Of a stretch of DNA of 47,294 nt, positions 1,877 through 7,900 are shown piece after piece. This DNA is from a virus, in the IMG/VR virus record IMGVR_UViG_3300000545_000001, positions 1-47,294 of that record; one strand, written 5' to 3'. How positions within the stretch are numbered: the first letter of the stretch is position 1; every line of letters begins with the position of its first letter. A program made the translations under genes and the position numbers. The notes under the pieces were generated by a model. That model saw nothing but the letters and a program-made list of their open reading frames with translations, was not told where the DNA came from and did no database searches.

Positions 1877-2178
1877 CAGCTCTTGGTGGTCCTGCCGGTG
1901 GACTTGCTGGCGCCCTTGGCCTTGGTGGGCGTGTCGCCGGAGCCGTAGTCGTCGCCCTCCAGGGAAGTGGCGCCACCCTCGACCGGGGGCGGTTCGGGCT
2001 CGGGGCGGTCCTTGCCGGAGTACTTCTCCGTGGCCTCGACGTTCAGCTCGGCCTGCGTCTTGCGCTCTTCGATCTGACGGGTGCGTTCGGCCTCGATCTG
2101 CTCGTCCCGGAAGCCCTCGGCCTCCGGTTCGGGCAACGGTCCGGTGCCCGGCGTACCAGGCAGAGTCGGGTCACTCAT
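1876..2178 (-). CDS. Small acidic hydrophilic protein upstream of terS, function unknown
   Basis: A 100-aa protein with no recognisable domain. The N-terminus is rich in Pro and Gly, the middle is a charged helix (FRDEQIEAERTRQIEERKTQ), and the C-terminus is a Lys/Ser/Thr tail. It overlaps terS by the ATGA stop-start arrangement and the HNH gene by 4 nt, so it belongs to the same transcript. Proteins of this look often sit just before small terminases in actinophages. A packaging accessory role is only an inference from position. Confidence 0.7.
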   Translation of the reverse strand: MSDPTLPGTPGTGPLPEPEAEGFRDEQIEAERTRQIEERKTQAELNVEATEKYSGKDRPEPEPPPVEGGATSLEGDDYGSGDTPTKAKGASKSTGRTTKS

Positions 2179-2498
2179 TGGCGGTATCTCCCTTGGGTGG
2201 TGCCGCCCTCGTGGCCCGACTTGGCTCTATCGCAGTCGAGGCAGATGGGCGCCAGGTTGGATGGGCGGTGGTCGTCGCCGGCTATCACGTGGTCGACCCG
2301 GGGGCCGTAACGGCCGCAGATGTGGCACGTGTAGTTGTCCCGGCGGAGCACCTGGCGGCGCAGGGTGTTCCAATTGGCCGGGAGCCGCTGGCGCCGGGTG
2401 GATGAGGCGTAGGGGGCGGGAGCGTGGGTGTCGCAATAGGTGGTGGACACCAGGACCGGACACCGGGGTTCAGCGCATGGTCCCCACTTGCGAGGCAC
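2175..2498 (-). CDS. HNH endonuclease near terminase
   Basis: Zinc-dependent HNH nuclease. From the chosen GTG (VPRKWGPCAEPRCP) the 107-aa protein has a first zinc knuckle (C8, C13, C22, H25). The HNH core follows: C58-C61, the D69-H70 pair, N81, C86-C89 and H96. HNH proteins beside terminase are needed for cos cleavage and packaging in several siphoviruses, so the role here is probably packaging. The GTG was chosen because GAGAGG lies about 10 nt upstream and the family often begins just before the first CxxxxC. The frame stays open to 2564, so a longer N-terminus is possible. It is the first gene of the late operon. Confidence 0.85.
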   Translation of the reverse strand: MPRKWGPCAEPRCPVLVSTTYCDTHAPAPYASSTRRQRLPANWNTLRRQVLRRDNYTCHICGRYGPRVDHVIAGDDHRPSNLAPICLDCDRAKSGHEGGTTQGRYRQ

Positions 2499-2672
2499 GT
2501 CAGGGACACCTCTCACCACTAGCCGTATACGACGGGTTATAGACGCTGAGCGCCTGCATAGCAAGAGCCCTTAGATAAGTCGATGGAGTGAGGCAACAAG
2601 GAGGGCGCTAGCGGTAAAGCCCTGGTCAGAGACTTGAGTTGCTTGTCTCAACATGCTTAGTGGGGTAGGTAG

Positions 2673-2719
2673 CTGTATTTGGTAATGTTCCATAATACAG
2701 GGGTCGACAAGGCTGTATT
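2673..2719. promoter_or_regulatory. Triple CTGTATT box, operator-like
   Basis: CTGTATT occurs at 2673-2679 and 2713-2719, and its inverse AATACAG at 2694-2700. The first two boxes form an inverted pair with a 14-nt gap, and the third repeats the first. The clustering in an AT-richer divergent intergenic region suggests binding of a dimeric regulator. This is inference from pattern only. Confidence 0.4.
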
Positions 2720-2824
2720 TCAGTCCCTCCATTCAGCGGAGGCCTGGCCTCAACGGTCGTCAGCGATAGGCCATACGGCCTACCCCCCACGGGTGTAAAC
2801 GCGCGGTAATAGGGCCAGCGACCC

Positions 2825-2843
2825 ATTGACTTCCGAGGTCAAT
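2825..2843. promoter_or_regulatory. Inverted repeat ATTGAC-N7-GTCAAT
   Basis: Perfect 6-bp arms separated by 7 nt, upstream of the plus-strand cassette. TTGAC reads as a -35-like element on both strands, but no well-spaced -10 is evident. It could be an operator or a promoter part. Confidence 0.3.
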
Positions 2844-2999
2844 AGGCTCGATGGCCCATTCTCATCTCACCCAAACAGATGAGACCGCGGGCCGAGCACG
2901 AGCACGACGAGCACGAGCCGACGAGCACGAGCCCGATAGAACGGCCGCTAGCTGCAGCGTTAGCCTTAAGCCCGCGCACCCAACGCCCGAAGGGGAGAC

Positions 3000-3122
3000 A
3001 TGCCCAACACGCCCTTCACCTCCACCGCCCGTATCCGCTTCGCTCTTGACGCCCTGCACACGAGCCGTTCCATCCGCTTCGCCGTGGCTCGTATCGCAAC
3101 ACGCACCCCGCCCTGCAGGTGA
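3000..3122 (+). CDS. Small basic protein, first ORF of the plus-strand cassette, unknown
   Basis: A 40-aa ORF beginning MPNTPFTSTARIRFALDALH, preceded by an AGGGGAGA ribosome-binding site 2 nt before the ATG. It is rich in Arg, Thr and Ala and has no known domain. It ends inside a CCCTGCAGG word, one of the repeated words of this region. Coding status is uncertain because of its short length, but its RBS and its position ahead of similar small genes favour it. Confidence 0.4.
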   Translation: MPNTPFTSTARIRFALDALHTSRSIRFAVARIATRTPPCR

Positions 3123-3213
3123 CCGAGGCCGAGACCACCTATCACCGGGCTTACGTCGCGCCCTGCAGGCCTCGACCCGATAGCCCGTTCCCTTCCCTTC
3201 CCCACACTTCCCC

Positions 3214-3233
3214 TTCAAGGAGACTTCCCGATG
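3214..3233 (+). promoter_or_regulatory. Shared translation leader TCAAGGAGACTTCCC, copy 1
   Basis: The string TCAAGGAGACTTCCC lies immediately before a start codon here, again at about 3484-3498 and at about 4553-4567. A shortened form, TCAAGGAGAC, occurs at about 5744. AGGAG is the Shine-Dalgarno core. Identical leaders before different genes imply duplication of a regulatory cassette or common translational control. Confidence 0.75.
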
Positions 3234-3398
3234 AGCACCTACTTTCTGGCCACGACCGACGGCAACCGCTTCACCTTCCCCGCGGCCGACGAGCACGAAG
3301 CCCGTTTGCTGGCACGACGAGCCCTTAAGGCGACCGGTAAAGCCCTGCAGTACCTTCGGGCTTACGACGGCATCACGAGCCGCACCCTTCCGTTCTAG
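3231..3398 (+). CDS. Small protein of the plus-strand cassette, unknown
   Basis: A 55-aa protein starting MSTYFLATTDGNRFTF directly after the shared leader TCAAGGAGACTTCCCG. It has a helical middle, EARLLARRALKATGKALQ, and ends in SRTLPF. The ALQ-type helix, encoded by GCCCTGCAG, recurs in the 100-aa protein at the end of the cassette (AARALQALG), so these products may be related. No known domain was recognised. The strong RBS and the hairpin after its stop support it as a real gene. Confidence 0.65.
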   Translation: MSTYFLATTDGNRFTFPAADEHEARLLARRALKATGKALQYLRAYDGITSRTLPF

Positions 3399-3423
3399 CC
3401 CCACCTAGCCCGAGCCCTTCCCG

Positions 3424-3473
3424 AGCCCTGCAGCATCAGCTGCAGGGCTTTCGGGGTGCCAGACACGGCACCC
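3424..3473 (+). promoter_or_regulatory. Intergenic double hairpin, copy 1
   Basis: The first hairpin has an 11-bp perfect stem AGCCCTGCAGC/GCTGCAGGGCT with an ATCA loop (3424-3449), followed by TTTCGGGG. The second is GGGTGCC/GGCACCC with a 6-nt loop (3454-3473). Both lie between a stop codon and the next shared RBS leader. The T tract is short, so the first hairpin could be a weak terminator, an attenuator or an RNA-processing site. Confidence 0.65.
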
Positions 3474-3499
3474 TTCCCAACAGTCAAGGAGACTTCCCG

Positions 3500-4471
3500 A
3501 TGTCCGAAACCATGAATGACCCAGAAGCCGGTACCGAACTTCACCCGTTCAACGTGCTCGACCTTCCCAACGTGCTCGACCGGGTGGAGACTCCGATCCA
3601 GCTGCAGTTCGGTTCCGATGTACTCGACATCGTCAAGGGTTGGTTCCGCTGGAGTGGCTCGTCGGTCGACGTGCTGTTGACCGACGATCAGACGATGTCC
3701 CTTGACGGCTCGGTCATGGTCGAGCTTCTCGGCCCGGTCGAGGTGCTCGACGCCGATCGAGAGGTGCTCTGCTATCACACGCGGGACGGTGAGGTGCTCT
3801 GCGCCGACCATGGTGCCCGGTGGGACATCGGGGTGACCGACGGGGATGTCTACCCGATACTCAAGGACAACGGCGACGGTATCGAGGCCGTCGGGTACTG
3901 CTCTCATGTCTGGGCGGCGAACGACCGTGGCCATAGCTTCTGTGGTTCGTGCGGCACTCCGGTCGAGCCGAAGGGGCACCCCGATAGCGGCTTCGTCGGT
4001 GAGATGTTTGAGTGCTGGAACTGCAGGGCACACGCGGTCTACGTGGACGGCGCGGGGTGGCAGCACGTGGACGGCTTCGATTACGTCACCGAGGGGCACA
4101 ACGTCACGATCAAGGGCTCGGCGGTTCACCGTGAACTGAGCGATACGCCCTTGACGATTACGGCCATGGTCGATGCCACGCCCTACCGCTTCACCTCCAC
4201 CCGCGGGTATGTCTGCTACCTCGACGTCGCGCCGTACGAAGGGCGTGTGCTCGTGCTCGACTCATCCTGGGACGGCGCGAACGATGAGGCCGAGAGCCAC
4301 TTCGATGAGGTGCGCGAACGGTGGGTCGCCGAAGTCATCGAGGCCGAGAGCATCGACACGAGCACGGCCGAAGGGCTCGAAGCGGTTGAGGCCGTTGAAG
4401 CGGACTTCCGTGCCGCCCTGCAGGTTGTCCGTGTCGACCTCGACGCGGTGGAGTTCACCTCGAAGCGGTAG
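3500..4471 (+). CDS. Zinc-ribbon protein of unknown function, plus-strand cassette
   Basis: A 323-aa acidic protein starting MSETMNDPEAGTELHPF after the shared leader. The central part holds a possible zinc ribbon, C148-x2-C151 and C172-x2-C175, with C134/H136 nearby. The rest is Asp/Glu/Val-rich without membrane segments or a signal peptide, so it should be cytoplasmic. The C-terminal part is a charged helix (EAESIDTSTAEGLEAVEAVE). Its codon use includes many GAGCAC, ACGAGC and CTGCAG words and fewer G/C third positions than the structural genes, which hints at separate acquisition. I do not recognise the family; a DNA- or host-protein-binding accessory protein is only a guess from the zinc ribbon. 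Confidence 0.75.
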   Translation: MSETMNDPEAGTELHPFNVLDLPNVLDRVETPIQLQFGSDVLDIVKGWFRWSGSSVDVLLTDDQTMSLDGSVMVELLGPVEVLDADREVLCYHTRDGEVLCADHGARWDIGVTDGDVYPILKDNGDGIEAVGYCSHVWAANDRGHSFCGSCGTPVEPKGHPDSGFVGEMFECWNCRAHAVYVDGAGWQHVDGFDYVTEGHNVTIKGSAVHRELSDTPLTITAMVDATPYRFTSTRGYVCYLDVAPYEGRVLVLDSSWDGANDEAESHFDEVRERWVAEVIEAESIDTSTAEGLEAVEAVEADFRAALQVVRVDLDAVEFTSKR

Positions 4472-4500
4472 CCCGTTCCCCGAGCCCTAGTGTCCCTTCG

Positions 4501-4541
4501 AGCCCTGCAGCTACCGCTGCAGGGCTTTCGGGGTGAAAGCC
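4501..4541 (+). promoter_or_regulatory. Intergenic switch-like hairpin, copy 2
   Basis: Hairpin A pairs AGCCCTGCAGC with GCTGCAGGGCT around a TACC loop (4501-4526). Hairpin B pairs GGGCTTTC with GAAAGCCC (4522-4529 with 4534-4541). The 5' arm of B lies within and just after the 3' arm of A, so the two folds exclude each other. The layout resembles an attenuator or anti-terminator pair placed just before the RBS of the next gene. Confidence 0.6.
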
Positions 4542-4567
4542 CTTCCCATCAGTCAAGGAGACTTCCC

Positions 4568-5419
4568 ATGATCAACGCCCTGGGTGACGACATCAGATTT
4601 ACCGACCGGTACCGCACGAAGTACGACTCCGCCATGGCGGAGTGGCTCGACTCCGGTCCCGAGCCCGACGAGAGCACGGGCTCGGTTGAGTGGCACGGTC
4701 ACGTCTCGCGTTTCGGTAAGAGACTCCTGCACGAAGATGACCGCGGCTTCGTTTCGGTCGAGCGTTTCGATACCGAGGCCGAAGCCATCGACCGTTTCGA
4801 GACCATCGACGCGGAGTATGGCGCGTGGCTCGATGACGACGAGCCCGAAGACGACGAGCCGATGACCGACGACGAGCCCGAGCCCGACGACGAGCCCGAA
4901 GGTTGGGTGCACGCGCCGGCGCGGGACGGCGCGGGGTGTTCGTGGTGCGGCACCTGGGCCATGGTGAACGGCGACGGTATGTGCCGTGAATGCTTCGAGG
5001 CCGATGACGAGCCCGCGCCGGTCGAGCACTCCGGGATCATCTGCCACGACGGCACGGCCGTTAATCTCTCGCTCGGGGTGCCTGGGTGCCTGCAGGCGAC
5101 TCCGATCCCTGGGAGCCGCTTCAACGACTGGGTCACGAGCCACAACCGCGCCCTTGACGACTACCGCCACAATCGCGCCCGTCGGAACGAAACGGCCGTG
5201 CTCAGTCTGGCCGCGGGCATCCTGCAGTACTGCGCTTCGCACGACTCGATGGGCACGGGCGATGATGTCGACTGGTACGGCGCGGAGCACGTGCTCGTGC
5301 CGCTTCTCGATGGCTTCGAGAACGCCCTAAATTTCGACCTCGGTCGGCTCGACGGTGGGACGTTGTCGGGCTTCGGTCACGCGGTGCGGAACTCCTACGC
5401 TGGAGGGCTCGGGGCATGA
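4568..5419 (+). CDS. Acidic zinc-ribbon protein of unknown function, plus-strand cassette
   Basis: A 283-aa protein starting MINALGDDIRFTDRYRTKYD. The ATG was chosen because it follows the shared leader exactly, although the frame is open further upstream. Residues 89-111 are an almost purely acidic, Pro-containing linker (DDDEPEDDEP and similar). A possible zinc knuckle follows with C124-x2-C127 and C139-x2-C142, and then a C-terminal globular part of about 130 residues. The acidic stretch could mimic DNA, as some anti-restriction proteins do, but this is conjecture. It overlaps the next gene by ATGA, so the two are translationally coupled. Confidence 0.75.
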   Translation: MINALGDDIRFTDRYRTKYDSAMAEWLDSGPEPDESTGSVEWHGHVSRFGKRLLHEDDRGFVSVERFDTEAEAIDRFETIDAEYGAWLDDDEPEDDEPMTDDEPEPDDEPEGWVHAPARDGAGCSWCGTWAMVNGDGMCRECFEADDEPAPVEHSGIICHDGTAVNLSLGVPGCLQATPIPGSRFNDWVTSHNRALDDYRHNRARRNETAVLSLAAGILQYCASHDSMGTGDDVDWYGAEHVLVPLLDGFENALNFDLGRLDGGTLSGFGHAVRNSYAGGLGA

Positions 5420-5718
5420 GTCGCTTCTCAGTCCAGCGGTACACGACGAAGAACGACACGAACGGCAACCCGCGCCGCGTGTGGGTCATCCGGGACGAGC
5501 ACGGCACGATCGTGGCCACGGCCGACGAAGGGTACGAAGGGCGTATCCCTGCTGCTCGTGCCCTGCAGGCTCTTGGCGCCGCGATGCAGGAGAACTACCT
5601 ACAGCACGGCTGGCCACTGTGTTGGCATCACGACGATGTCACCGATCTAGGAGACGTCGACGTCTCACCCGGTGTCTACCGTCGGATGATCCGCTACCGG
5701 ATCGGCGACGCTACCTAG
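5416..5718 (+). CDS. Small protein of the plus-strand cassette, unknown
   Basis: A 100-aa protein starting MSRFSVQRYTTKNDTNGN, coupled to the preceding gene by an ATGA overlap. The N-terminal half reads like a small beta-sheet unit (RRVWVIRDEHGTIVATADEG) followed by a helix AARALQALGAAMQENYLQHG, and a C-terminal part with several His and Asp residues. No known family was recognised. It is the last well-supported gene before a strong terminator hairpin at 5749-5796. Confidence 0.7.
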   Translation: MSRFSVQRYTTKNDTNGNPRRVWVIRDEHGTIVATADEGYEGRIPAARALQALGAAMQENYLQHGWPLCWHHDDVTDLGDVDVSPGVYRRMIRYRIGDAT

Positions 5719-5748
5719 CACGAGCCCTACAACTTCAGAATGGTCAAG

Positions 5749-5796
5749 GAGACCACGGCACCCCGAAGGGGACGGCCGTGGTCTCTTTGCTTTTTC
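5749..5796 (+). terminator. Rho-independent terminator after the plus-strand cassette
   Basis: A perfect 11-bp stem GAGACCACGGC/GCCGTGGTCTC (5749-5759 with 5775-5785) encloses a loop with its own CCCCGAAGGGG mini-hairpin, followed by TTTGCTTTTT. It overlaps a decayed copy of the shared leader (TCAAGGAGAC). Confidence 0.85.
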
Positions 5797-5838
5797 GCCC
5801 TGCAGCTACCGCTTGCAGGGCTTTCGGGGTGAAAGCCC
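5797..5838 (+). promoter_or_regulatory. Intergenic switch-like hairpin, copy 3
   Basis: Same design as the copy at 4501-4541. GCCCTGCA pairs with TGCAGGGC (5797-5804 with 5814-5821), and GGGCTTTC competes to pair with GAAAGCCC (5818-5825 with 5831-5838). It precedes a GGAG Shine-Dalgarno and the GTG at 5862. Confidence 0.55.
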
Positions 5839-5861
5839 TTCCCCTGCCTACCGGAGTCGAC

Positions 5862-6310
5862 GTGCACGAGCCAGAACGGAACCCAGCTAGGGCTCGTGCC
5901 CTGCAGGCTCGTCGGCTCGTGCGCGGGACGGCACGGCCTGCAGGCTCGTCGGCGCGGCTTTCGCTGCAAGCTCGTGCTCTCCTACGAGCCCGTATCGACC
6001 TACGAGCCCTTGATCTGGTCGATGGCTCGTCGGTACGGCCTGCAAGCTCGTGCTCGGGCTCGTCGGCCGGCCGGCTCGGCCTGCAGGCTTCGAGCCCTAC
6101 GAAGCCCTACGAGCCGTGCTCTCGACCGTCGGCACCCTTCCATGCCACCCGGTCGGTTGAAGGGCTTAGAACGGCACCTAGCGGCTCGTCGTGCTCGTCA
6201 CCGTGCCCTGGGAGCCGCTGGGCGGCTCGTGCGGCTCGACGGTCGGCCGCTGGGCGGCTCGTGCTCGTGCCCTGCAGGCTCGTGCTCGTGCTCGACGGCT
6301 CCAGAATGAG
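5862..6310. repeat. Field of GCTCGT/ACGAGC and CCTGCAGG words
   Basis: About 450 bases in which GCTCGT or ACGAGC occurs some twenty times and CCTGCAGG or CCTGCAAG several times, for example near 5891-5920, 6040-6085 and 6250-6300. The spacing is irregular, so it is not a tandem repeat. The same words are also enriched in the genes to its left but are sparse in the structural genes. Confidence 0.6.
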
Positions 6311-6500
6311 CCATCGGGCCTACCCCGTCCGGGCTAGGTCTTTCGGCCCGGGTCATTCGACCTACCCCGCTTGGGGGATGGACAAGCACCCCGGCGGGAG
6401 GGCCAGGCAGGGGCATAGCACAGCACTAGCACGGGGTTTTTTCGGGGTTTTTTCGGACCGATTCCGAACCCGATCGACCAGGATTTCCTGGCGAATCTGA
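5862..6500 (+). CDS. Doubtful low-complexity ORF with dense repeated words
   Basis: The GTG has a good RBS (GGAG, 5-nt spacing) and lies after the third switch-like hairpin, as the other cassette genes do. The predicted product begins MHEPERNPARARALQARRLV and is almost entirely Arg, Ala, Leu and Ser, made by iteration of GCTCGT and CTGCAG words. The frame also runs over two tandem CGGGGTTTTTT tracts near 6432-6453. It could be a young or decayed gene, or a non-coding repeat field that happens to be open. I favour no more than a short real N-terminus. Confidence 0.25.
   Translation: MHEPERNPARARALQARRLVRGTARPAGSSARLSLQARALLRARIDLRALDLVDGSSVRPASSCSGSSAGRLGLQASSPTKPYEPCSRPSAPFHATRSVEGLRTAPSGSSCSSPCPGSRWAARAARRSAAGRLVLVPCRLVLVLDGSRMSHRAYPVRARSFGPGHSTYPAWGMDKHPGGRARQGHSTALARGFFGVFSDRFRTRSTRISWRI
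6432..6453 (+). repeat. Tandem CGGGGTTTTTT tracts, possible terminator
   Basis: Two perfect copies of the 11-mer CGGGGTTTTTT sit head to tail, followed by a short inverted repeat TTCGG/CCGAA. The T tracts would stop transcription coming from the left, but no strong stem precedes them. Confidence 0.4.
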
Positions 6501-6549
6501 CCCTGTCGCCGGCCGGCGGTTCGGAGTGCCACTCCACTCTCCGCCTGTC

Positions 6550-6580
6550 TTGACAGCCACCGACCGACACGGACTAGCTT
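6550..6580 (+). promoter_or_regulatory. Possible promoter TTGACA-N19-TAGCTT
   Basis: A consensus -35 (TTGACA, 6550-6555) is followed after 19 nt by TAGCTT (6575-6580), which fits the actinobacterial TAnnnT -10. It would drive the possible small gene at 6617. The spacing is slightly long, so confidence is low. Confidence 0.3.
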
Positions 6581-6616
6581 GCGCCGCCAGACGACGGGGC
6601 ATCCACCGTTGTCAGG

Positions 6617-6884
6617 GTGGGCGCCGGGATCAAGCGGGCGTTGTCATCTGCTGTCGGGACCGGTGCGCCACTGGTTGCGGCCCTCCACATGGGCCGCTCC
6701 ACCGATCGCTGGGCGGCGTACCCCGGCGCCCGCCTGCTGGCCATGGCGGCCAGCATCGCCCCGTACATGGCGAAGGTCCGGCGGACGGAGCCGAATACCC
6801 GCCCACCGGACCCTCAGTGCCGTCGACATGGGCATGGGATGCCACGTCGCCAGCGTCCTGCTCTTCAACCGCTGGCGATCCTAG
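6617..6884 (+). pseudogene. Possible small frameshifted gene
   Basis: From GTG 6617 the frame begins VGAGIKRALSSAVGTGAPLV and has very high G/C at third positions up to about 6795. After that the coding signal moves to another plus-strand frame ending SAVDMGMGCHVASVLLFNRW before TAG at 6882-6884. A +1 shift near 6795, or a sequencing error, would join them into about 89 residues. The stop overlaps the stop of a convergent minus ORF in the four bases CTAG. No known family was recognised. Confidence 0.3.
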
Positions 6885-7000
6885 GTGCCCACGGTGGCCT
6901 CGTGGGGGATGGCGCCGGCCACCAGCACCTCCAACTCCCGGCGACACCGGTCGGGCTCTACGGCATCCACGGCCTCGCGCACCACCCCCGGGAGGTGCAC
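6881..7000 (-). CDS. Small possible protein, convergent with the plus unit
   Basis: A 39-aa reading frame with high G/C third positions ending AVDAVEPDRCRRELEVLVAG-AIPHEATVGT. GTG starts at 7000 or a few codons downstream are possible, and none has a clear RBS. It overlaps an inverted repeat at 6983-7010. It might be the remnant or last small gene of the leftward operon. Confidence 0.3.
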   Translation of the reverse strand: MHLPGVVREAVDAVEPDRCRRELEVLVAGAIPHEATVGT

Positions 7001-7010
7001 CCCGGGGGTG
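6983..7010. terminator. Inverted repeat CACCCCCGGG/CCCGGGGGTG
   Basis: Perfect 10-bp arms around an 8-nt loop. It lies in the zone where leftward and rightward transcription meet, so a bidirectional terminator is likely, although no T tract follows on either strand. Confidence 0.4.
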
Positions 7011-7018
7011 ATGCATGA

Positions 7019-7065
7019 GGGGACCTCCCCCAGGGGACTTCCCCCACCTAGTGGGGATCTCCCCC
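7019..7065. repeat. Three GGGGAnnTCCCCC near-palindromes
   Basis: Units GGGGACCTCCCCC (7019-7031), GGGGACTTCCCCC (7033-7045) and GGGGATCTCCCCC (7053-7065) are close variants of one near-palindrome. The spacing is 1 nt and then 7 nt. They may be protein-binding boxes or part of a structured termination zone. Confidence 0.5.
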
Positions 7066-7080
7066 ACCCCTGAGACGCCA

Positions 7081-7110
7081 AGACGCCCCCCGGGAAGGTG
7101 GGGGGCGTCT
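7081..7110 (-). terminator. Hairpin after the lysin gene
   Basis: Perfect 11-bp stem AGACGCCCCCC/GGGGGGCGTCT with an 8-nt loop, about 50 nt beyond the stop of the leftward operon. There is no U tract, so it may end transcripts with the other G-rich repeats or protect the 3' end. Confidence 0.55.
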
Positions 7111-7159
7111 CGGATGTTCCGACTTGGGTTCTGCACCCGGCGCTGATGCTACCGCCCTC

Positions 7160-7900
7160 TCACACCCACGGGTAGGCGTCGAGGACGTGGCGCTCGTCGG
7201 CCGTGAGGGTGTTGACGTCGATGGCGTGCAGCGATGCGTTGGGCGGGTTCTCCGGCTTCTGCACGGCGATGAGCCCGACCCGCTGCAACAGCGTCACCTC
7301 CGGCGGCGAGCCCATGCCCAGCTTGTGGGGTTTGCCGTCCTTGAGCACGAGCGTGAACTGCCCGCCGGGGTCGGTGAACAACACGGTGGGCGTGCTATGC
7401 GTCGCCAGCTTGGAGACGATGGCGTTGCTCAACATGGAGCGCATCTGATTCCAATCGGCCTCGGTCATCTCATCCTCGTTTCCGGGCGCATGCCCTAGCA
7501 GTGGTGCCCGATCGAAGTAGCCCGTCGGGTCGATGTTGACGCCCCCGTCCCATAGCTCCAGGTGGGCGTGACTGCCGGTGCTGGAGCCGGTCGAGTCGAT
7601 GGTGGCGATGGCGGTGCCGGCGGTGACCCAGCCCGACCAGACCTGGGTGGAGCCGTGGTGGAACGACTTGAACATGTGCGGCCCGTCGACCACCCACGAC
7701 CAGTTCCCGGCTCCCCCGGGTTCCGTGCCGGTCGTGACCATGCCGTCCCACGGGGCGATGACGGGGACCCCGCTGGGTGCGCCGTAGTCGACGCCGCGAT
7801 GGAACGAGCCGACCGCCCCGGTGATGGGGTCGACCCTGGACCCGTAGCCCGACGTCTTGGGAAAGCTCTCCAACAGCGGGAAGTAGGTCAGCTCCCGCAT
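7160..7900 (-). CDS. M23 family peptidoglycan endopeptidase (endolysin)
   Basis: A 246-aa lysin that cuts cell-wall peptide cross-links. Residues 1-135 are an M23/LytM zinc peptidase with H34-x3-D38 in SFHRGVDYG and H111-x-H113 in SHAHLEL, the usual zinc ligands and catalytic histidine. There is no signal peptide, so release needs a holin or similar. Residues 141-246 form a second domain (EDEMTEADWNQM ... VNTLTADE) that is clearly shared with the lysin at 8122-9099, so it is probably a wall-targeting or partner-binding module. The ATG overlaps the stop of the preceding small gene (TGACATG). It is the last well-supported gene of the leftward operon. Confidence 0.88.
   Translation of the reverse strand: MRELTYFPLLESFPKTSGYGSRVDPITGAVGSFHRGVDYGAPSGVPVIAPWDGMVTTGTEPGGAGNWSWVVDGPHMFKSFHHGSTQVWSGWVTAGTAIATIDSTGSSTGSHAHLELWDGGVNIDPTGYFDRAPLLGHAPGNEDEMTEADWNQMRSMLSNAIVSKLATHSTPTVLFTDPGGQFTLVLKDGKPHKLGMGSPPEVTLLQRVGLIAVQKPENPPNASLHAIDVNTLTADERHVLDAYPWV

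Follow-up and report, generated by a model that had tools for sequence, protein, structure and literature searches.

The virus record IMGVR_UViG_3300000545_000001 of IMG/VR (hereafter the window, meaning the whole stretch of 47,294 nucleotides that was analysed) is a circular assembly of 47.3 kb whose first and last 33 bases are identical. It is the genome of a temperate actinophage, a soil phage, with nearest terminase relatives among the actinophages (Streptomyces Kromp, 44%). Genes for terminase, portal, capsid protease, scaffold, major capsid, tail and tape measure proteins and fibre all read leftward, as do those for a serine integrase, helicase, exonuclease, RuvC-like resolvase, methyltransferase and lysis proteins. 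A 3.4-kb cassette of four genes with repeated control elements, which is the subject of this study, reads rightward instead; judged by predicted coding, about 86% of the genome outside it is leftward. For comparison we used G1 and G2 (G001 and G002, one phage in two assemblies), which represent the closest relative, and the sister genomes G4 (G004, locus L191) and G11 (G011, locus L073).

Genes and boundaries of the rightward cassette

The rightward block and its four open reading frames (ORFs) of 55, 323, 283 and 100 amino acids are as described in the sequence-only reading. Differences from the relative are of the coding type, with 1, 4 and 9 changes at the three codon positions in gene 1 and 11, 8 and 21 in gene 2; the first 85 residues of gene 2 are 84% identical in G1, where the gene is truncated afterwards. 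The picture of a leader followed by an ORF holds for three genes, but gene 4 lacks a leader, and its start overlaps with the gene 3 stop codon. Similarly, the two proposed zinc ribbons are visible as CxxC pairs (residues 148/172 in gene 2 and 124/139 in gene 3), but Pfam gives only a weak match for gene 2 (double zinc ribbon, E 2.4e-4, below the Pfam cut-off) and none for gene 3. The Asp/Glu/Pro linker is indeed present in gene 3, but its nature had to be corrected: it is written as GAC-GAG-CCC repeats and consists of translated copies of the cassette word GACGAGCCC. When phage records were searched with all four genes, plasmids with gene 2 and IMG/VR with genes 1-3, the only matches were G1/G2 (gene 1) and weak ones of the phrog_1587 type (gene 3). 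The N-domain of gene 3 is weakly related to gp5 of Streptomyces phage BillNye (tblastn E 0.04) and to a Rhodococcus RER2 protein.

The cassette lies beside a probable cos site. Contigs of the terminase relatives L188 and L189 stop at the equivalent of window position 2745 (...AGCCT), and those of L187, L190 and L192 end in similar sequence, so that five relatives in all stop just left of GGCCTCAACG. The right-arm contigs G1, G2 and G11 start with GTC immediately to the right of this decamer. Both the window and L191 have the decamer intact, and GGCCTCAACGGTC is conserved in L191. Since assembly of linear molecules with single-stranded overhangs yields such contig ends, the decamer is likely to represent a cos site with a 10-nt overhang. 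Gene 1 would therefore begin about 480 bp from the DNA end and read inward, and the contig comparison gives good support for placing the cassette at the very tip of the linear DNA in the virion. The other genes read inward as well, starting from the opposite end, and the two units meet at about 5.8-7.1 kb. Left of cos, an AT-richer pocket at 2640-2745 contains operator-like CTGTATT repeats, both direct and inverted. Just right of the cassette boundary, CGGGGTTTTTT is repeated in tandem at 6432-6456 (11 bp, 2.3 copies).

Features of the cassette and its surroundings, in order of position in the window
Feature	Position	Strand	Basis
Putative cos, probable 10-nt overhang GGCCTCAACG	2746-2755	.	Contig ends of relatives
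GATGGCCCATTCT, left half of imperfect inverted pair	2850-2862	.	12/13 complementary to 6303-6315
Left word array CGAGCACGAGCCGA, 14-bp period	2893-2936	+	Tandem Repeats Finder, 2.9 copies, 96%; 89% conserved in G1
Leader copy 1, TCAAGGAGACTTCCC	3215-3229	+	Exact; 15/15 conserved in G1
Gene 1, 55 aa	3231-3398	+	93% identical in G1/G2, coding-type substitutions
Intergenic hairpin 1, AGCCCTGCAGC-N4-GCTGCAGGGCT, then TTTCGGGG	3424-3449	+	Fold z -5.25; covarying pairs
Leader copy 2, TCAAGGAGACTTCCC	3484-3498	+	Exact; 15/15 conserved in G1
Gene 2, 323 aa, zinc-ribbon-like (CGSC...CWNC)	3500-4471	+	ORF and GC3
Intergenic hairpin 2	4501-4526	+	Fold z -4.01
Leader copy 3, TCAAGGAGACTTCCC	4553-4567	+	Exact
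Gene 3, 283 aa, N-domain phrog_1587 (E 1.4e-7), D/E/P linker, CSWC...CREC	4568-5419	+	ORF, profile match
Gene 4, 100 aa	5416-5718	+	Weak matches to phrog_20597 and phrog_34112
Strong intrinsic terminator closing the cassette genes	5746-5795	+	Fold z -5.63; pattern scan
Third hairpin copy, without leader or gene behind it	5797-5821	+	Fold and copy comparison
Right word array, GGCTCGT and CCTGCAGG, densest part, no credible ORF	5860-6301	-	Word counts
AGAATGAGCCATC, right half of inverted pair	6303-6315	.	Pairs with 2850-2862
Conserved right boundary ATGGACAAGCACC	6361-6390	.	Also in G11, just past its cassette

Leaders, hairpins and iterated words

An identical leader before three start codons had been reported, and the exact sequence TCAAGGAGACTTCCC indeed occurs three times at 0-1 nt from ATG; there is no fourth exact copy in the whole 47.3-kb record. 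None of 100 shuffles of the window yielded five leader matches at three or fewer mismatches. The cassette was also resampled 2000 times under a Markov model, which never gave a 12-mer abutting three ATG/GTG codons. The leader contains AAGGAG at normal Shine-Dalgarno (SD) spacing, and strong translation of the cargo genes from this SD is likely. The 15-mer is unchanged in both orthologous leaders of the window and G1, while the flanks differ by indels and substitutions, and the seven bases 3' of the SD are conserved even among leader copies that otherwise share little.

The leader is not a common ribosome-binding site (RBS), as a relaxed pattern scan of IMG/VR found multiple copies only in G1/G2 besides the window. 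Apart from those in G1/G2, exact matches in contigs L004-L040 were attributed to chance, and a 25-bp match in L017 was rejected for its unrelated context. When about 120 sequences were screened for 11-mers common to at least three starts, with no preset motif, SD-like leaders were recovered in the window and L191; the remaining matches were GC-rich words, apart from L214. The 'leader' retrieved from L073 is also a word and not its leader; read by eye, the leaders of L073 follow a looser pattern than the window and L191 do. As a positive control, the same type of screen retrieved the known start-associated leaders (SAS) of the Cluster K phage Anaya. Applied to R4 and Urza it gave no word common to the genes, and in Zemlya one word, on the strand opposite the genes. 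The reverse complement of L214 (3508-4505) shows small rightward genes beside the terminase end, with GAAAGGACGCA before three starts, and its gene 1 is 50% identical to gene 5 of G11.

The repeated control elements comprise, in addition to the leader copies, a hairpin that had been missed in the sequence-only reading. Its pattern, AGCCCTGCAGC-N4-GCTGCAGGGCTTTCGGGG, stands before leaders 2 and 3 and again after the terminator, and is absent before leader 1. For hairpins 1 and 2, none of 200 shuffles folded as well. The G11 hairpin carries a homologous tail (GGGCTTTGGGGATGCCAGAGAC) and has three stem pairs changed on both sides, a number that 3 of 500 shuffles reached; as a single divergent sequence is compared, this is moderate evidence. 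Taken together, the conservation patterns indicate that leader and hairpin are under constraint. The upper arm of the terminator opens as a truncated leader (TCAAGGAGAC), and both G11 and G4 have strong hairpins of their own after genes. A search of Rfam gave no match, and no TANNNT was found between hairpin and start. Matches of the hairpin tail in L055 and L056 lie inside unrelated sequence and were rejected. At the 3' end of the leftward unit, the hairpins GGGGGAGATCCCC/GTGGGGGA are alike in the window (7020-7100) and in L019 (1640-1700), and they probably form the terminator of this unit in both phages.

The cassette is also the most word-divergent segment in each of the three complete genomes. 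Its 6-mer divergence is 0.749 in the window versus at most 0.405 in 75 control segments, with corresponding values of 0.717 versus 0.274 in G4 and 0.826 versus 0.330 in G11. Outside the cassettes, 5-mer usage is near-equal in the three genomes (Hellinger distance 0.09-0.10), whereas the cassettes are 0.38-0.39 apart. The words of the window cassette include ACGAGC (42 occurrences versus 4 expected) and CTGCAG (19 versus 1.8 expected); those of G4 are CGTGTG, GCCCGT and GACGAC, and those of G11 CAGCCC, CGTGCT and ACCAGC. Word density mostly peaks in noncoding DNA (up to 23 per kb), and the last 450 bp of the cassette are a noncoding array of short words, with 15 copies of GCTCGT in the final sixth of the cassette. 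Coding DNA is enriched too: Leu-Gln occurs 7 times in 761 cassette residues, 6 of them via CTGCAG, versus 19 times in 9688 residues elsewhere. No comparable deviant segment was found in Anaya, R4, Zemlya, Urza or 21 more distant terminase relatives, of which shorter stretches were compared. A role as end-protecting chi-like sites was rejected, as the word orientation is inverted at the two sides and misfits a one-way signal. In the more distant relatives L071, L072, L075, L080 and L081, short tandem or near-tandem repeats (GAGGTGCCCCAGCA, GGGGGGTTCCCCAGCA, GTCTCGTAGTGG) lie downstream of a peptidase at the cassette end of the genome; a scan of genome contigs with the peptidase returned distant peptidases only, so that no host is indicated.

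Cargo turnover in sister genomes

The complete genomes of G4 (46.5 kb, ends overlapping by 69 bp) and G11 (46.6 kb, seemingly running from cos to cos) are syntenic with the window over about 50 proteins (22-89% identity). At the same place, both have a rightward cassette with unrelated genes, its own leader, its own hairpins and its own words, and no orthologs of the window cassette proteins are present in either. The G4 cassette has five rightward genes, four of which stand behind CCTAGCCCAAC(C/A)GAA-type leaders, and that of G11 has seven, mostly behind looser CGAAC...GGAG-type leaders. With two complete syntenic relatives carrying non-homologous genes at the locus, the cassette is not a fixed, conserved gene set. 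The loading of new cargo behind a reusable leader, as suggested earlier, finds support in G1/G2, where gene 1 is followed by an extra 54-aa gene and then by the hairpin, the leader and the first 85 residues of gene 2 before the sequences diverge. The extra gene starts with GTG behind a leader copy of its own, TCAAGGAGACCTTCCCA; this directly attests the joint gain or loss of a cargo gene and a leader copy. Both the anatomy of the cassette and the turnover of cargo between sisters are thus well supported at the sequence level. The G001 contig (IMGVR_UViG_3300005364_000010; L049-L051) appears chimeric. Its first part, at about 1-20 kb, is a close relative of the window; beyond about 20 kb the identity values to window proteins equal those of G11, and this remainder is probably a piece of a G11-like phage.

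Concerning function, the earlier guess of anti-defence gained indirect support from the sister G4, where gene 5 encodes an Ocr-like domain, but none of the window's four proteins could be tied to such a role, and Pfam, PHROG and PADLOC searches found no Ocr-like domain in them. The matches of G4 gene 5 are phrog_4239 (E 1.2e-38) and proteins of Streptomyces phages that bear the annotation 'OCR-like antirestriction protein' and are encoded near right ends. A CxxC motif is fused to the domain and shares 78% identity, over 32 aa, with a motif of G11 gene 4; that the rest of the G11 protein is different shows domain shuffling. The C-terminal end of G4 gene 4 corresponds to phrog_1915, known from 424 phage records, and the family of the gene 3 N-domain also occurs in the inward-reading end genes of BillNye. 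By analogy, the cassette may have an early, anti-defence role.

Elsewhere in the window, the minus-strand gene at 1409-1876 has HNH/ORF100 on one side and TerL on the other, the usual place for a small terminase subunit, but the sole PHROG match of its product is 'minor tail protein' (phrog_226, E 1e-7).

Known systems and explanations of the cassette

The claim that the system is undescribed had to be narrowed, as start-associated leaders with inverted repeats are known (PMC3203893), and so are end-located early genes that share a regulatory sequence (PMC11065993). Cluster K mycobacteriophages have repeated SAS, with upstream inverted repeats in ESAS (Pope et al. 2011, PMC3203893; Adephagia, PMC11373665). 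Like SAS, the present leader is a short asymmetric repeat with an SD core that abuts the starts of different non-structural genes in one orientation, and it is conserved outside the SD, beyond rRNA pairing, which is a like feature and not membership. As in ESAS, an inverted repeat stands upstream of a subset of the leaders (2 and 3), and its sequence differs between phage lineages. However, the SAS consensus GGGATAGGAGCCC occurs at chance level (3 matches at 2 mismatches versus 1.9 expected, none in the cassette), and the leaders are confined to a single 3.4-kb end cassette, whereas SAS are scattered over the right arm. Furthermore, the hairpin has arms of 11-12 bp instead of 17 and shows covariation support, the SigA-like promoter described for ESAS was not found in a consensus scan of 2000-7500, and Anaya has none of the word iteration. 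In their apparent working the leaders are similar to SAS/ESAS, but they are not SAS/ESAS.

In archaeal viruses, terminal early genes under a common regulatory sequence are anti-defence genes (PMC11065993). The cassette likewise lies at the end of a linear genome and combines diverse accessory genes with a common regulatory sequence. The common element of the archaeal viruses is a promoter, whereas the present phage, a tailed one, has a leader at the start codon together with a hairpin. R4-like Streptomyces phages (Arquatrovirinae) also have small inward-reading right-end genes, and a domain homologous to the Ocr-like domain of G4, but theirs are long operons that continue into replication genes, and no gene-spanning leader or word deviation was found in them. 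BillNye has inward-reading gp1-gp5 at its left end, with the phrog_1587-type domain of gene 3 in gp5, but it is a much larger phage (127 kb) in which a repeated leader was not found.

The explanation that we favour, giving it about an even chance, is that the cassette represents a fixed locus for accessory genes, located at the cos end of the linear genome in a group of temperate actinophages, with swappable cargo for early counter-defence or host takeover. End position, inward orientation, phage-specific leader, hairpin, words and gene turnover can be read from the genomes themselves, whereas early transcription, hairpin function and the counter-defence role are proposed. On infection, transcription would begin near the end and run through the cassette as a single unit to the terminator, towards the oncoming leftward lysis genes. 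Translation of every cargo gene would be strong and even, since each has the same SD leader, with AAGGAG and a conserved spacer; a factor encoded by phage or host perhaps recognises this leader. The intergenic hairpins may insulate the genes, either by terminating part of the transcripts or by promoting transcript processing and protecting 3' ends, and such insulation would let a gene that arrives with its leader work without its neighbours being re-tuned. The cargo, which comprises small acidic and zinc-ribbon proteins here and an Ocr-like protein in the sister, would act early against host defences or machinery and would be swapped through recombination.

Several observations weigh against this proposal. 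Consensus searches found no sigma-70-like promoter at 2000-7500 from which early transcription from the end could start. The compensatory changes in the hairpin all come from one divergent sequence, and the third hairpin copy has no gene following it. Searches of the window's four proteins against Pfam, NCBIfam and PADLOC gave no known anti-defence family, and AlphaFold single-sequence models were poor (mean predicted local distance difference test scores of 42 and 50), with no significant Foldseek match. Lastly, the Ocr label was taken over from annotated proteins, with only a weak link to phrog_2568 (ocr-like; E 0.006).

The cassette could instead be an ordinary module at the right end, made up of small early genes that evolve fast, with the leader representing a good RBS spread by recent duplication and the hairpins representing intrinsic terminators. 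We regard this as rather unlikely, even though AAGGAG is normally spaced, the hairpins look like terminators and R4-like Streptomyces phages have inward right-end operons of orphan genes. The seven post-SD bases are conserved, including in orthologous leaders with diverged neighbours; the right ends of R4, Zemlya and Urza show neither a gene-spanning repeated leader nor word deviation; and a terminator between every gene would require a promoter per gene, of which none was found.

An element for replication origin, packaging or DNA-end protection, with phage-specific iterons near cos and the genes secondary, would account for private words that are mostly densest in noncoding DNA, inverted at the cassette sides and located beside cos. 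This is improbable, as the words saturate coding sequence too, the arrays show no helical phasing by eye, and G1 keeps the left words without genes 3-4 and the right array, yet has a phage-like genome. Imperfect inverted pairs flanking the block (2850-2862/6303-6315 and 2893-2918/6263-6288) and a composition foreign to the genome could also suggest an inserted transposon-like mobile element with terminal inverted repeats. We consider such an insertion very improbable: Pfam and PHROG profiles identified no transposase or recombinase gene among the cassette ORFs, and in three phages the same cos-adjacent position holds sequences that are unrelated, while the right boundary is conserved.

The private word sets are the most novel part of our findings and a clear anomaly that calls for a mechanism. 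It is possible, although we are inclined to doubt it, that they mark a new kind of locus whose conserved trait is DNA vocabulary, with each phage lineage imposing a private word set on the whole cassette, coding and noncoding, and so writing parts of proteins (CTGCAG giving Leu-Gln, GACGAGCCC giving the Asp-Glu-Pro linker). A lineage-specific factor could use the words as its sites, or they could be traces left by copying and recombination that load, match and even create cargo genes. If the cassette is indeed a fixed locus with swappable cargo, start-associated leaders with upstream inverted repeats would have arisen outside the Cluster K mycobacteriophages, so that their function could be compared across lineages. 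Moreover, a position rule (cos-adjacent, inward-reading, with its own repeated leader and deviant words) would then help to find new counter-defence and host-takeover genes, and would serve in particular for uncultured actinophages, where homology searches fail.

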